This document shows positions 10,759 through 21,534 of a DNA stretch of 64,000 bases, in pieces. Each line of letters begins with the position of its first letter. Position 1 is the first letter of the stretch. Under the pieces are notes generated by a model. The model saw nothing but the letters and a program-made list of their open reading frames with translations. It had not been told where the DNA came from and searched no databases. The stretch is from Antennarius striatus (lineage: Eukaryota > Chordata > Actinopteri > Lophiiformes > Antennariidae): positions 2,827,501 through 2,891,500 of the forward strand of contig NC_090795.1 in NCBI RefSeq assembly GCF_040054535.1, read 5' to 3'. The position numbers were made by a program, and so were the translations under genes.

Positions 10759-13700
10759 TCATTTCTTGCGGTAGTCGGCTGCGTAGGCTCTGTGGTCGTC
10801 CTGCTCGGGGAAGTGGTCTCCGTAGCGCCTCAGTATGTCCTCGATGCTGGGCAGACCCTGCGAGACCGGCGGGTAGGACATGTGAGTCTCCTCCTGGCCG
10901 CTCTGGAAGGGCTCCGCCTCGTACTGGTCCTGTTCCTGCTGCTCTGGATGCTGCTCGCTCTCTGCCGCCCCCTGGTGGCGGTCTTCTTCTGCGTAATGCT
11001 CGGTTTGGGTCTCGGCTTGTGTCTGCTCGGGCTCGTAGCGACGCAGGCGACAGTCGGGGTCGTACTCGGGGTCGCAGTGTGGGTTGGCGGGCTCCATGAC
11101 CCCGTTGCGGGTGCCGTCGGTGTTCAGGTGGGGCTCGTAGGCTTCGGCGGGGTAGGGTACTCGGCGGTGGACTCCGGAGCGCGGCTCCGCGGGCTTCACG
11201 GGGTAGCATTCGCGATCGTACCCGATGTAGCAGTCGTAGCCCTCTTTGGTTTTACCCGGGGGCCCCAGGGGGTGATGCTCCTCCTGGGCGGGCTCTTCGT
11301 AGGTGGGGCTGGTGAGCGGATACTGCTGCCTGGGGGTGGGGGGACTCTGGCGATGCATGGCGGCCATCATCTCACGGATGGCAGAGAAGGGATCGTTGGG
11401 GTTGGACTCCTGAGGGGCTTCCACGCGTGGGGCGTAGGGGTCGTTCCCGTGGGTTTGCCCCCTGTATCTGCGAAGGATGGCGTAGGGGTCGCTCGCCGGG
11501 GGAGGAGATGGGGGGCTAGCCTGGCGGTACATAGCATAAGGATCGGTAACTCTGTTAGCATTAGCGTAGGTGTCCCTAAACATGGCGTAGGGGTCGTGGT
11601 GACGCTCGGCGGCGGCAGGAGGGGCGACACGGAGGGCGGCCGCCTCCTCCTTTTCCTCGTGTTTGTACGAGTCGGGTGGCGTGGCAAATTTGACGGCGGT
11701 AAGCGGGTTGCAACCTTCGTCAAAAAGAGGGTTGCAGGATCCGGGGCGAGCTGCGGTTGGGGGGTTGGGGGCTCGGGGAGCCTGGAAGAAAAAAATCCCA
11801 GCAGAAACATCGTAAGTCACGGGAATTGTGTTGCAGATGCAAATGAGGTAATGAAAACAAACAAACAAACAAACAAACAAACAAACAAACAAACGTACCA
11901 CAAGGGAGGCAGTGTAGGCGCAGAAGGGGTCCCGTGGGTCACAGTTGGGGTACTGTATGTAATGACCAGAGGGGGCTTTCTGCACCAGTTTGGGCTTACA
12001 GGTGGGGTCTTTCTTGGGGTCACACCCCAGGTGGGCGTAGGACGGCAGGGGCCCGGCGGCGGGGGAGTGTCCGTAGGCGGCCCTCAGGTGGTACTGCAAA
12101 CACTCCACGTCGTCAGAGGAACAGATACGCAACAGCTCCGCCTTCTCCTCCTGAGGGCAAAACAACGGACCAATCGGTGTTTGTGTGTCGTTAGAGGTCA
12201 GAGAAACGTCTCTGATGTCATCTTGATGTCATTCTTTCCCAGAATTCCCAGATCCCCATTGGATGAATACATTTTACGTAAGCATACCTTGGAAAGGAAA
12301 GGCGCTGCCGATGGAGAGTAGTAATAATACCCCGACTGGGGGTCCTTGGCCGGAGCAGCAGAGCGAACGTAAAGCGGGGCGGGGGCCTTCACTGGTGCCG
12401 GAGCGGGGGTGGCAGCCGGGAGTACCAGGGGCAGATAGGGACTCTTACCCTGGACCAAAGCGGCGTACAAGCAGTAGGCATCTTTGGTGGGGTCACATGT
12501 TTTTATCGGTGCGGGTTTGGGGGGTTCTGGCTTGGCTTTGGGTCTGGTGGTGTAGGAAGCCACGCAGTTGGGGTCGTCAGAATCGGCACATGACTTGTAA
12601 ATATCCCCCAGGTGCCTCAGGTAGGCCTTGTAGGATCGCTGCCCTTCGGCGCGGTTCTTGTTCTGGAGGTAGGTCAGGTAGATGCGGTCCATCTCCTGCA
12701 CCTGTGGGGGGAGGGAGGGATTACCGGCGACGCGATTCAACACAATTGTGGAGGTTAAGAAACACCTGCAGACACTACACAGGGCTGAATAAAGCACCAA
12801 GCATTAAAAACCCATTCCCTATATTAGATGAAGCGTTAATAAGAACCTAGAAATAAACACAACAGCTGTTCTGTGTTTGAAAGGCGATCATCTGCCCCGA
12901 TTTAAAATTAGAACTCATTCCAGTATCACATTTTCTGCAGATTAATAGTTTAAGCTTTCTGAAAAGGGGAAAAATACCAACTTTAACTCGATTAAAAGCT
13001 AGATTTAGATTTAGACGACCGCTGTGGGCACTTACTGCCTCCTGGTTGCCGATGTCGGTGAAGTACTTGTACCAGCCCCAGAAGTCGGAGTGCTGTTGGT
13101 ACCAGCTGATGTTGCGGCGGTTGCGGATCAGCCTCCTGTGCGACTCGGCGGCGGCCGACCTCTCCTTGATACTCTCTCCTGCAGACGCCAGAAAGTAAAG
13201 ACACGCCACTGCTGATCCAGCGGCTTCTGAACTCCCTCGGACATCAAATTCAAGGACTCATGCATGACTTGAAGGAGTAATGAAATATTCAAGGCCTCAA
13301 ATTTGATATATTTTGGGGGGTAAGGCATCGCTGAGCCCCTGACTGGTCATTATATCACATTAGATATTGTTAATAGACTTGTGTGAGGCTACCTTGAAGC
13401 AATGTGATGAATTTTTTAGTTGCTGTTTAATGAAAAATTGCATTCAGTGACTCCTGCGGCAACTTTTATTGGGTTTTCACTCCTGGTATATTCCTGAAAC
13501 AAACATCGATGCTTGTGTTTGTTAAAAAGGTGAAAAAAGAAAATCACACATTTACCGTGTCCTTTGGCCTTTCGCGCAATCGGTCCAGCAGACGAAAAAG
13601 CTGCGAAAAGACAAGAAAAGACGCAAAAACAGACATGAAATTCAGAAGTTGTTGACGTCGAATCCTAAGAAGAAACATTTTCCAGGAGCGTCATGTGTTT

Positions 13701-14986
13701 TTTAAAAACATTAGCGATAATAAATGACATTAAGACTCGACGCACAGGCAGATATTTTCCATTAAATGGGACAGAGGTAATTGGCAGCGCCTGAAGCGCT
13801 GGCGACTGCAGCTCTTTGTAGATTTTATAGGTGAGCTTGTAACATCCAGCCTCACGCTGTGTTGTCAAAGAGCTGCGTGTGCACGAGTGTGTGTGCGCGT
13901 GTGCACGAGTGTGTGTGTGCGCGCGTGGTGTGTGTTGGTGCTTCGTTTGACCACATGCAGCCAAGGGAAATGGCAGATTCAGCTCTGCTGCACGTCTCTT
14001 TCATCTCCACGGGGAAAAGGTGTTAACTCCTTTCAGGAGAGAGGAAGAGGAGAAGGAGGAAGAAGAGGAGGATGACGAATAAGTGGAAGGAGATCCGGAG
14101 GGGATGATTCAGAATTATGGGATGTGTGTCGGAAGTGGGGAAAACAGGAGTTTTAATAACGTTTGATGGAGTGTCCAGGGTCCGACGTGCAGGGGCTTGA
14201 CTTTGAGGAGAAATCAGACGAGAGGAGGTGAAGGTGACCGGAGGAGATGAGGGCGGGGCCTAACCGACGCCGTATCCCATGTATTTGTTTTTTACGAGCC
14301 TGTAAATAACGGCTGGCACATCTGGAAACGGCAGCAGTTTAAGAGGTGATGCTGACAGGCACTCATTTTTTAACAGGAGCAGAAATGATGAAAGAAACTC
14401 CTCCTTCACCCCCCCCCCTTAACCATCTCTTTGCAATTAAAACCTTTTGAGTAGGGGGGGGGGGTTGCCTCTAAATATGCCAGTCCTGTCCAGGAAAACC
14501 TGGAAACAGGTGGCAGAACATCAACCTGTCTTCATGCTGACGCGTCATACATGAAATATGAACGCCACGGGCGACGTAAATTATTATCGCGCCGGCGAGG
14601 GCGACCCTGAACTGATAGGGGCAGACACCCGTCCAAGTCCAATTAACCTTTGACCTTGACATCCAGATTATAAAGCTATAAATCAAATAAATTTACGAAG
14701 AAAGTTGAAAAGTAGAAAAAACGCGACCTTTGAACAGGAAGGATGACTTTTACGCCAATAAATTCAAGCTAATTTATGAATTTACATTTTAAAAACTTGA
14801 GATTCTTCCACGTTTTACTAGATTTATCTGGATATCTGTGCTTATTGTACACGTCACCATAAGAACCATGTGATAGTCGAAGTATCTGAGTTCTTACATC
14901 ACTTTCTACTCACCAGGCAGCAGCATCACGGCCACCAGCGCGGCCACCAACACACCGGAGAAGCAGCTTCTCCTCCTTCCAGCCAT
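10759..14986 (-). CDS. and: Actinodin (actinotrichia structural protein), six coding exons, complete
   Basis: Coding exons, in transcript order: 14914-14986, 13556-13600, 13036-13178, 12288-12701, 11899-12150, 10759-11781. All junctions are GT-AG and phases agree (1,1,0,0,0), giving 649 aa. Residues 1-24 plus the start of exon 2 form a signal peptide with an RRR n-region and a Val/Ala/Leu core. A dibasic site RNRR (58-61) is followed by the sequon NIS. An SDFW module spans 70-93. The rest is a secreted, Pro/Tyr-rich, acidic chain with eight C-x(6,7)-C loops of the CDPxxDPxC type and five DP[YF][AS] repeats in the last exon. Actinodins are non-collagen components of actinotrichia, the fibres supporting fish fin folds, so the product should be extracellular. 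The start is the first ATG after a 5'UTR acceptor. Which actinodin paralogue it is (and1 to and4) cannot be decided here. Recognition rests on the CDPxxDP motifs and architecture as I remember the family. Confidence 0.87.
11854..11894. repeat. (AAAC)n tetranucleotide repeat inside actinodin intron 5
   Basis: About ten AAAC units, read as GTTT on the transcribed strand, start a few bases after the donor of a 117-base intron (11782-11898). They fill roughly a third of that intron. Confidence 0.95.
13880..14080. repeat. GT-rich and GAGGA purine-rich low-complexity tracts in actinodin intron 1
   Basis: An interrupted GTGT/GCGC tract (13880-13935) is followed by an almost pure purine stretch (about 14038-14080). 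Confidence 0.85.
14409..14464. repeat. C10 / G11 inverted homopolymer pair in actinodin intron 1
   Basis: Ten C at 14409-14418 and eleven G at 14454-14464 are separated by 35 bases, so they can pair as a hairpin. The intron is 1.3 kb and otherwise unremarkable. Confidence 0.85.
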
Positions 14987-20657: not shown

Positions 20658-21534
20658 TCAGTGTTCATGCCCCTCATTGGTCTCATATCCCAGAGTATCT
20701 CCGAGGTGCTGATGGGCGAAAAAGGCGCGGGCCATGTTGTTGATGTGGTTGTAGGCCCCGATGGATCTGAAGTATTCAATGTAGTTCCAGAAGTCGGAGG
20801 TGGAGTAGGGCCAGTAGGGAACCGCTGGCGGCTCGTCGTACGGCACTGAAGAAGACACAAGCAAAAGCATGAAGAGGTTTATTGATTGAATGAGCCTAAA
20901 ACCAGCCAGCAGGAAGAGCTTAACCTGCAAAAAAAATCGCAACTAGAAGTAAAATACTGGCAGGAAAAGTTTATTTTAGGACAAATAATACATGGACAAC
21001 TATCTACCTGCTGTATTTTATAGCAAAATATGAAAGCATGTGTAGGAGAAGTGTTATTTTGATACTGTACCTCCTTCTGGGATGACTCTGGCCTCTGTGA
21101 GGACAGAAAGAGAGAAGGAAAATTAGCATTCCCAAGAATCCCGAGACTTCCCAAATACAAAGACGGGATTCAACTGAGGGAACTCAGCTTTTCTCCCAGG
21201 AGACCGCAGATACCTGCTCCCTCCCCCAAATATTATTGCTGACTATTTCACACACACCCACAATCCAGTGCAAGAAGAATCCGCCGTCGGACAGACTCGT
21301 CTTTGTGTATTCATGCTGTCACTAAAAACTAACGCTCTCCCGTGGAAGCAGCAGCTTCACGTCTGGAAGATTATATCCGACTCACACACAACTAACTGGA
21401 AAAATGTATTAACTCATCACTGCTTGTCAAAGTATTTCACTAAAGTCTATGTTGTAGATTAAGAAGAGAAACTCACCGCTCAGATGATAAAAGGCAAAAA
21501 GGCAGAGAACACTGAGGCAGACCAACGTCTTCAT
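20658..21534 (-). CDS. otos: Otospiralin, three coding exons, complete
   Basis: Exons 21477-21534, 21071-21094 and 20658-20845 join with phases 1 and 1 into an 89-residue protein, the same length as mammalian otospiralin as I recall it. Residues 1-19 are a classic signal peptide ([19 protein letters not shown]). The mature chain begins EARVIPEG and carries the family core [17 protein letters not shown], then [17 protein letters not shown] and LGDTLG. Otospiralin is a small secreted protein made by cochlear fibrocytes in mammals and needed for hearing; its role in fish is not known to me. The ATG lies one base after a 5'UTR acceptor (ccttcag). A donor at 21694-21695 marks an upstream non-coding exon ending at 21695. 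The middle exon is only 24 bases. The SDFW core aligns without gaps to the actinodin gene two loci away. Confidence 0.95.

Follow-up and report, generated by a model that had tools for sequence, protein, structure and literature searches.

Otospiralin is an inner-ear protein and augurin (ECRG4) is hormone-like; both are small, secreted, and kept in people. Actinodins are proteins of the actinotrichia of fish fins, and we know of no actinodin relative outside fish. Here we analyze a 64,000-nucleotide stretch of the genome of Antennarius striatus (C20:2827501-2891500; NC_090795.1, GCF_040054535.1), referred to below as the window, in which an actinodin gene and an otospiralin gene lie on the same strand, and we conclude that actinodin, otospiralin, and augurin are likely three branches of one secreted-protein superfamily.

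According to passages in PMC13120675, teleosts have four actinodin genes, two of which (and3 and and4) are short, and1 and and2 are jointly required for actinotrichia, and the loss of actinodin is a familiar candidate among the gene losses of the fin-to-limb transition. The C[ND]PxxDPxC repeat motif of actinodins is described in excerpts of PMC4764851. In catshark, all chondrocytes of the vertebral cartilage express otospiralin, of which a second gnathostome paralogue exists (passages in PMC13188829), and otospiralin is present in the zebrafish skeletal matrix (excerpts of PMC3946537). Sections of PMC10088197 describe augurin as the precursor of a peptide hormone and mention a predicted thrombin site; they report the protein in chondrocytes, with an effect on osteoblast differentiation, and as a repressor of a Wnt reporter, the repression being unchanged by mutation of a furin-like site. 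The expression domains of zebrafish ecrg4a include a facial ligament (passages in PMC12912267). According to these reports, actinodin, otospiralin, and augurin thus all occur in connective or skeletal tissue, among others.

The window actinodin is an ordinary and1/2-type member of its family, with no notable difference, and it contains the C(N/D)PxxDPxC repeats by which actinodins are recognized: two are exact, four (exact ones included) occur at looser spacing, and eight are found in the loosest form. The window otospiralin scores 130.6 bits against Pfam PF15182, for which the cut-off is 27. Both gene models were rebuilt from the minus-strand sequence, with splicing from the genomic letters, and have the following features.

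10759-14986, minus strand: actinodin (and1/2 type), six coding exons, 649 aa; spliced model, introns GT-AG
14914-14986, minus strand: actinodin exon 1, 73 bp, ending in phase 1; predicted signal peptide (hydrophobic stretch judged by eye)
13556-13600, minus strand: actinodin exon 2, 45 bp, ending in phase 1 (spliced model)
13036-13178, minus strand: actinodin exon 3, 143 bp, phase 1 to phase 0, with the basic cleavage-like site and the first part of the module
13114-13125, minus strand: putative furin-type site RNRR, residues 58-61, predicted from the motif and alignments
13036-13104, minus strand: actinodin shared module from W65 to the phase-0 intron, 23 residues counting the W
12288-12701, minus strand: actinodin exon 4 (spliced model)
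12669-12701, minus strand: second part of the actinodin shared module, residues 88-98, in exon 4 past the phase-0 intron
11899-12150, minus strand: actinodin exon 5 (spliced model)
10759-11781, minus strand: actinodin exon 6 (spliced model)
10759-12668, minus strand: actinodin tail rich in Cys, Pro, and DPYA, the remainder of exons 4 to 6 including introns
20658-21534, minus strand: otospiralin, three coding exons (58, 24, and 188 bp), 89 aa; Pfam OTOS 1.9e-38
21477-21534, minus strand: otospiralin exon 1, 58 bp, ending in phase 1
21071-21094, minus strand: otospiralin exon 2, 24 bp, ending in phase 1
20658-20845, minus strand: otospiralin exon 3, 188 bp
20712-20813, minus strand: otospiralin shared module W39-H72, in a single exon and intron-free

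A preliminary description of the window had noted a likeness between the N-terminal part of actinodin and the otospiralin core, and this observation is confirmed. The actinodin block SDFWGWYKYFTDIGNQEAVQEMDR aligns with the otospiralin core without a gap and with 10 identities over 24 residues, exactly as described; the full local match is also gapless and comprises 34 residues, 11 of them identical, with a BLOSUM62 score of 66. That score exceeds the best values obtained from 2,000 otospiralin shuffles compared with the whole actinodin (56) and from 20,000 double shuffles in which the N-terminal 135 residues were used (51), and two-sequence BLASTP and phmmer gave 4e-5 and 4e-6. Because the pair had been picked after many genes, perhaps many windows, had been viewed, a choice that the shuffle and BLASTP values ignore, these chance values overstate the surprise. 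The human otospiralin, augurin, and UCMA sequences used in our comparisons are provisional; human otospiralin scores 59 against the window actinodin, a value reached by 0 of 5,000 shuffles. For the other three actinodins of this genome compared with otospiralin, 3, 0, and 4 of 2,000 shuffles reached the score.

Gene structure agrees as far as the first two exons are concerned: in the rebuilt models, as previously noted, a signal-peptide exon ending in phase 1 is followed by a tiny exon 2 that also ends in phase 1. Phase-1 introns after the signal peptide are common in vertebrate secreted proteins, and agreement of the signal-exon phase is therefore weak evidence by itself. The further statement that exon 3 carries the block holds for otospiralin, in which the block is uncut, but not for actinodin, in which the phase-0 intron between exons 3 and 4 cuts the 24-residue block after its 18th residue. 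A 5' untranslated region intron just before the ATG had also been proposed for both genes; a plausible splice acceptor lies 1 base upstream of the ATG in otospiralin and 19 bases upstream in actinodin, the intron itself being a prediction from sequence, and for zebrafish and1 the literature describes a noncoding first exon followed by a first intron (excerpts of PMC6497306). In summary, otospiralin resembles actinodin in the gapless W....SDFW....YF..IG.......M.R block, in the phases of exons 1 and 2, and in adjoining it; unlike actinodin, it has neither a basic cleavage-type site nor an intron within the block in the rebuilt model, and it lacks the tail.

Four actinodins were found in the genome (548 Mb, 42 contigs): that of the window, a second and1/2-type gene on C18 (C18a), and two shorter and3/4-type genes on C10 and C18 (C10 and C18b). 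This set agrees with the four teleost genes, two of them short, of PMC13120675. The C10 gene was assigned to the and3/4 type because it is short and has the Cys repeats. In a search with the window actinodin, C18a was 44% identical over its longest match; C18b appeared as a weak place about 300 kb from C18a and was found again at 1.8e-17. Exons 3 and 4 alone were placed for C18a. Its long genome match includes stops (two TGA and one TAA), which we read as the match overrunning the exon end, because the frame of exon 4 stays open over 306 aa. One place that weakly matched the C10 actinodin (L040) has a stop and no module and was taken as chance.

Profile comparisons extend the match beyond the single pair. 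With hhalign, the four actinodins matched the augurins (fish and human) with a probability of 91 (P = 8.9e-7) and the otospiralins (fish and human) with a probability of 77 (P = 2e-5); when fish augurin was added to the actinodins, the match to otospiralins was in the same register and had a probability of 85 (P = 6.6e-6). In none of these three comparisons did any of 300 column shuffles of the second profile reach the score. The profile-profile check suggested in the preliminary description thus gave a significant match, which supports the proposal that the N-terminal module of actinodin is homologous to otospiralin. A hidden Markov model (HMM) of the four actinodin N termini of this fish, searched against five targets and 10,000 shuffled decoys with E values scaled to 20,000 sequences, ranked fish otospiralin first (0.0016), followed by fish augurin (0.0058) and human augurin (0.062), with the best decoy at 0.13. 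UCMA, considered on account of an FLxxRxxKR-like stretch, was strong only with the UCMA family, was not reported by the actinodin HMM, and was rejected.

Structure prediction, also suggested previously, could be carried out, but the otospiralin and actinodin models are too weak to decide between the same and different folds. In single-sequence models, the otospiralin exon 3 peptide forms two helices (helix-turn-helix) with a mean predicted local distance difference test (pLDDT) value of 68, which is low confidence, and the actinodin exon 3 peptide, cut at the intron, forms one long helix (mean pLDDT, 86). A search of the PDB with the module profile returned three chains with E values of 1.1, 1.1, and 2.6, which were taken as chance.

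Augurin (Pfam PF15187), overlooked in the preliminary description, is as close to actinodin as otospiralin is, or closer. A search of the Pfam library (24,736 families, with matches reported at E ≤ 10 and a gathering cut-off of 27 bits for both OTOS and Augurin) is a less biased view of actinodin than a pairwise test of a chosen pair. The full window actinodin matched just two families, OTOS (E = 0.0049, 17.2 bits) and Augurin (E = 0.013, 16.1 bits); its N terminus, trimmed to 104 residues with ends that we picked, matched Augurin at 6.4e-4 (20.3 bits), OTOS at 1.2e-3 (19.1 bits), and a T4 endonuclease family at 0.059. None of nine controls of the trimmed piece (eight shuffles and one reverse) matched any Pfam family. 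The C10 actinodin matched Augurin and no other family, at 1.9e-5 in full (25.3 bits, just under the cut-off) and at 1.5e-6 when trimmed to 109 residues (28.9 bits, over it). C18b matched Augurin at 2.1e-4 in full (21.9 bits) and 2.2e-5 when trimmed (25.1 bits), both under the cut-off. Run over the genome, the Augurin model gave, among the matches listed, four places at E ≤ 10. Two of them are exons of the fish augurin gene on C12 (7.5e-22 and 2.5e-21), a third is exon 3 of the C10 actinodin (E = 0.58), and the fourth, on C9 (E = 9.8), contains a stop and was taken as chance. Pairwise, C10 and fish augurin have the common pattern V..V.I.S.KA..FL..(.)R.KRNV...W.R..PD.Q.........G..E...E.D, with a score reached by 0 of 2,000 shuffles (fitted P = 1.8e-6), and none of 5,000 shuffles reached the score of the window actinodin against human augurin.

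Actinodin and augurin also have features in common that otospiralin lacks. Augurin and the window, C10, and C18b actinodins have an R-x-K/R-R site whose end lies two to five residues ahead of the conserved W. This putative cleavage site reads RNRR in the window gene, where three residues separate it from the W, RPKR in C10 and C18b, and RTKR in fish augurin, and C18a also has RNRR; in alignments, the window RNRR coincides with RTKR of fish augurin and RQKR of human augurin. The corresponding site of augurin is called putative furin-like in sections of PMC10088197. A phase-0 intron follows the 23rd residue from the first W of the module in augurin and in the three actinodins that keep this W (window, C10, and C18b), and C18a has a phase-0 intron at the matching aligned column, with Q replacing the W. 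Exon 1 ends in phase 1 throughout (window, 73 bp; C10, 49 bp; C18b, 52 bp; augurin, 70 bp), as does exon 2 (45 bp in each of the three actinodins and 48 bp in the augurin candidate), and exon 3 ends in phase 0 (143, 161, 149, and 152 bp, respectively). The exact intron match between actinodin and augurin covers exons 3 and 4 only. Augurin further shares the conserved W, G, E, and D positions with the actinodins and, with C10, the sequence K-A-x-x-F-L followed by R-x-K-R ahead of the module; unlike actinodin, it terminates about 74 to 78 residues past the site and lacks C(N/D)PxxDPxC repeats.

Taken together, the three proteins share what we read as a common N-terminal module, comprising the W, a first segment that is rich in aromatic residues and closes at G, and then a second segment, and a common exon plan of a phase-1 signal exon, a very short phase-1 exon 2 (a candidate in augurin), and a module exon. 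The putative basic cleavage site before the module and the phase-0 intron at an identical place are found in actinodin and augurin only.

Several results weigh against a single superfamily. Otospiralin and augurin are not directly similar (pairwise, 334 of 2,000 shuffles reach the score; with hhalign, the probability is 0.3 and P is 0.19, and 77 of 300 column shuffles reach the score), and actinodin, which matches both, is therefore a bridge and the sole tie between them. The nearest relative varies, the and1/2 type being closer to otospiralin and the and3/4 type to augurin. The window actinodin lies under both Pfam cut-offs, full and trimmed, and is therefore not filed as an otospiralin; the C10, C18a, and C18b actinodins do not match OTOS in Pfam searches, and the C18a N terminus matches neither OTOS nor Augurin, an unrelated family at 0.071 being its only match. 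The OTOS model run over the genome retrieved otospiralin and three chance-like places but no actinodin exon, perhaps because the intron halves the match. The window actinodin is modestly similar to fish augurin, its score being equaled by 3 of 2,000 shuffles, and the similarity of C18a is weaker still (49 of 2,000). Human otospiralin has an E value of 0.34 with the actinodin HMM, under one decoy. The augurin exon 2 of 48 bp is a candidate: a strict splice-signal scan found none, and in a relaxed scan it tied for the top score with two other exons, one of them with an identical acceptor. Moreover, the aligned module is short, cleavage of actinodin is predicted from its motif, and a single fish genome is the whole sample.

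Some of these results would be explained if actinodin and augurin alone were homologous and the likeness of otospiralin were a convergent short amphipathic helix (SDFW..YF..IG) in an accidentally adjacent gene. This explanation, which we regard as improbable, fits the missing furin-type site and inner intron of otospiralin, its lack of direct similarity to augurin, and the failure of the OTOS model to retrieve actinodins genome-wide, and the picking of the pair inflates its apparent significance. Convergence and accident would nevertheless have to account for a gapless 34-residue match that no shuffle equaled at either the sequence or the profile level, for the rank of fish otospiralin at the top of the actinodin HMM search, for the scores of the other three actinodins, for the equal phases of exons 1 and 2 in adjoining genes, and for the improvement of the otospiralin P value when augurin is added to the actinodin profile.

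The origin originally proposed, in which a tandem duplicate of an otospiralin-like gene gained a tail and became actinodin, with augurin a later or unrelated branch, is unsupported and very unlikely. The two genes do adjoin, and the SDFW core is most alike in the window actinodin and otospiralin (score of 66 versus 53 for fish augurin), but augurin is as close or closer; the cleavage-type site and inner intron that it shares with actinodin would have to have been gained in parallel, and the and3/4 type is nearer to augurin. That there is no homology at all, and that convergence alone produced the likeness in phase-1 introns, dibasic site, and short aromatic helix, is a negligible prospect, since although each feature is common, identities are few, the module is short, and the genome is a single one, independent features coincide: the profile scores, an exact intron place and phase (by our own estimate about 1 in 100 by chance within the 34-residue block), the KAxxFLxxxRxKRNV-like stretch of C10 and augurin, a trimmed C10 actinodin over the Pfam cut-off, and the lack of any match from the nine controls of the trimmed window actinodin.

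Within a superfamily of three branches, the ancestor was more probably an augurin-like precursor, because augurin shares with actinodin the furin-type site, KAxxFL (in C10), and the exactly placed phase-0 intron. Actinodin would be made as a pre-pro-protein and cut by a furin-like convertase after R-N-R-R, or R-P-K-R in the and3/4 type; the mature chain would consist of a small helical N-terminal module followed by the Cys/Pro repeat tail, which may polymerize or bind collagen in actinotrichia. The tail would have been added 3' of the module, from exon 4 onward, to the augurin-like precursor, and in otospiralin the cleavage site and inner intron would either have disappeared or have been absent from the start.

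The linkage of these genes is probably old. Between actinodin and otospiralin, cops9 was the sole gene found and is on the same strand, as previously described; the search for other genes there consisted of a reading of the sequence and of the listed open frames, in which no further gene was noticed. The neighbors concerned are as follows.

17514-19889 (approximate), minus strand: cops9, coding exons about 19827-19889, 19110-19178, and 17514-17549; Pfam MYEOV2 1.5e-33 (joined exons)
22447-22755, minus strand: frame with a lipocalin exon, adjoining otospiralin; Pfam Lipocalin 1.1e-6

The lipocalin frame is presumably ApoD-like. A tblastn search of C18:9780700-9859900 with window frames found actinodin, cops9 (two of three exons, about 9817603-9818015), and a lipocalin exon pair from about 9820412 (5e-31), in the same order and on the same strand as in the window; otospiralin gave no match at E ≤ 1 in this region, including the gap at about 9818015-9820412. 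Judged from this one block, C18 and C20 very likely carry the two copies that the teleost genome duplication produced. C18 keeps actinodin, cops9, and lipocalin together, and this cluster is therefore probably older than that duplication. The adjacency of human COPS9 and OTOS, which we take to be neighbors, would place actinodin, cops9, and otospiralin together before the fish/tetrapod split. Actinodin, cops9, otospiralin, and lipocalin would then form an old cluster, and tetrapods would have retained otospiralin and augurin and lost actinodin.

We tentatively extend this scenario, although we consider the extension doubtful. Actinotrichia proteins might derive from an augurin-like prohormone whose furin-type site is still processed; an augurin-type propeptide might be released, or the helical module might be presented on the fiber surface, and actinotrichia would thus both support and signal to migrating fin mesenchyme. 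Humans would keep OTOS (beside COPS9) and ECRG4, and the tetrapod loss of actinodin would be a one-gene deletion from the old cops9-linked cluster.

If the three proteins are indeed one superfamily, land animals may have lost one branch of a gene family and not the whole family, and a structural innovation of fish gains a named precursor. Predictions for fin fibers could be drawn from augurin and tested, e.g., convertase processing and modulation of Wnt (as in sections of PMC10088197); otospiralin could be viewed anew, as a relative of actinodin in skeletal tissue, and the old cops9 cluster would be an exact place to seek a deletion scar in tetrapods. Among the open-access full texts searched, with the subscription literature mostly outside this scope, actinodin was nowhere paired with otospiralin, ecrg4, or augurin, nor augurin with otospiralin; in broader searches of these texts, among the matches listed, actinodin or actinotrichia was never combined with the other names. 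The link may nevertheless have been published before.

The OTOS model offered three weak places for a second otospiralin in the genome, all taken as chance: one lies inside a 211-aa frame that by eye resembles a retroelement reverse transcriptase (no search was made), one has an internal stop, and one is just 17 residues long. The two C18 actinodins (C18:9801857-9803638, and1/2 type, and C18:9497291-9498624, and3/4 type) are about 300 kb apart, and the two types may have arisen by local duplication. C18a (C18:9803475-9803638) has Q at the conserved W, no IG turn, and extra residues after R-N-R-R, and its module seems to have diverged further than those of the other three. Lipocalin matches occur at three C18 places past cops9 (L031, L032, and L033; 9820301-9850000), the last two on the opposite strand, compared with at least one in the window; these lipocalins are presumably also ApoD-like. 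Elsewhere in the window, long open frames lie on the minus strand between 26424 and 37863 (26424-28469, 32140-32673, and 35842-37863); a piece of the frame at 32140-32673 contains a PH domain (Pfam PH_9, 2.8e-12), and we take these frames to be probably a Rho GTPase-activating protein gene.

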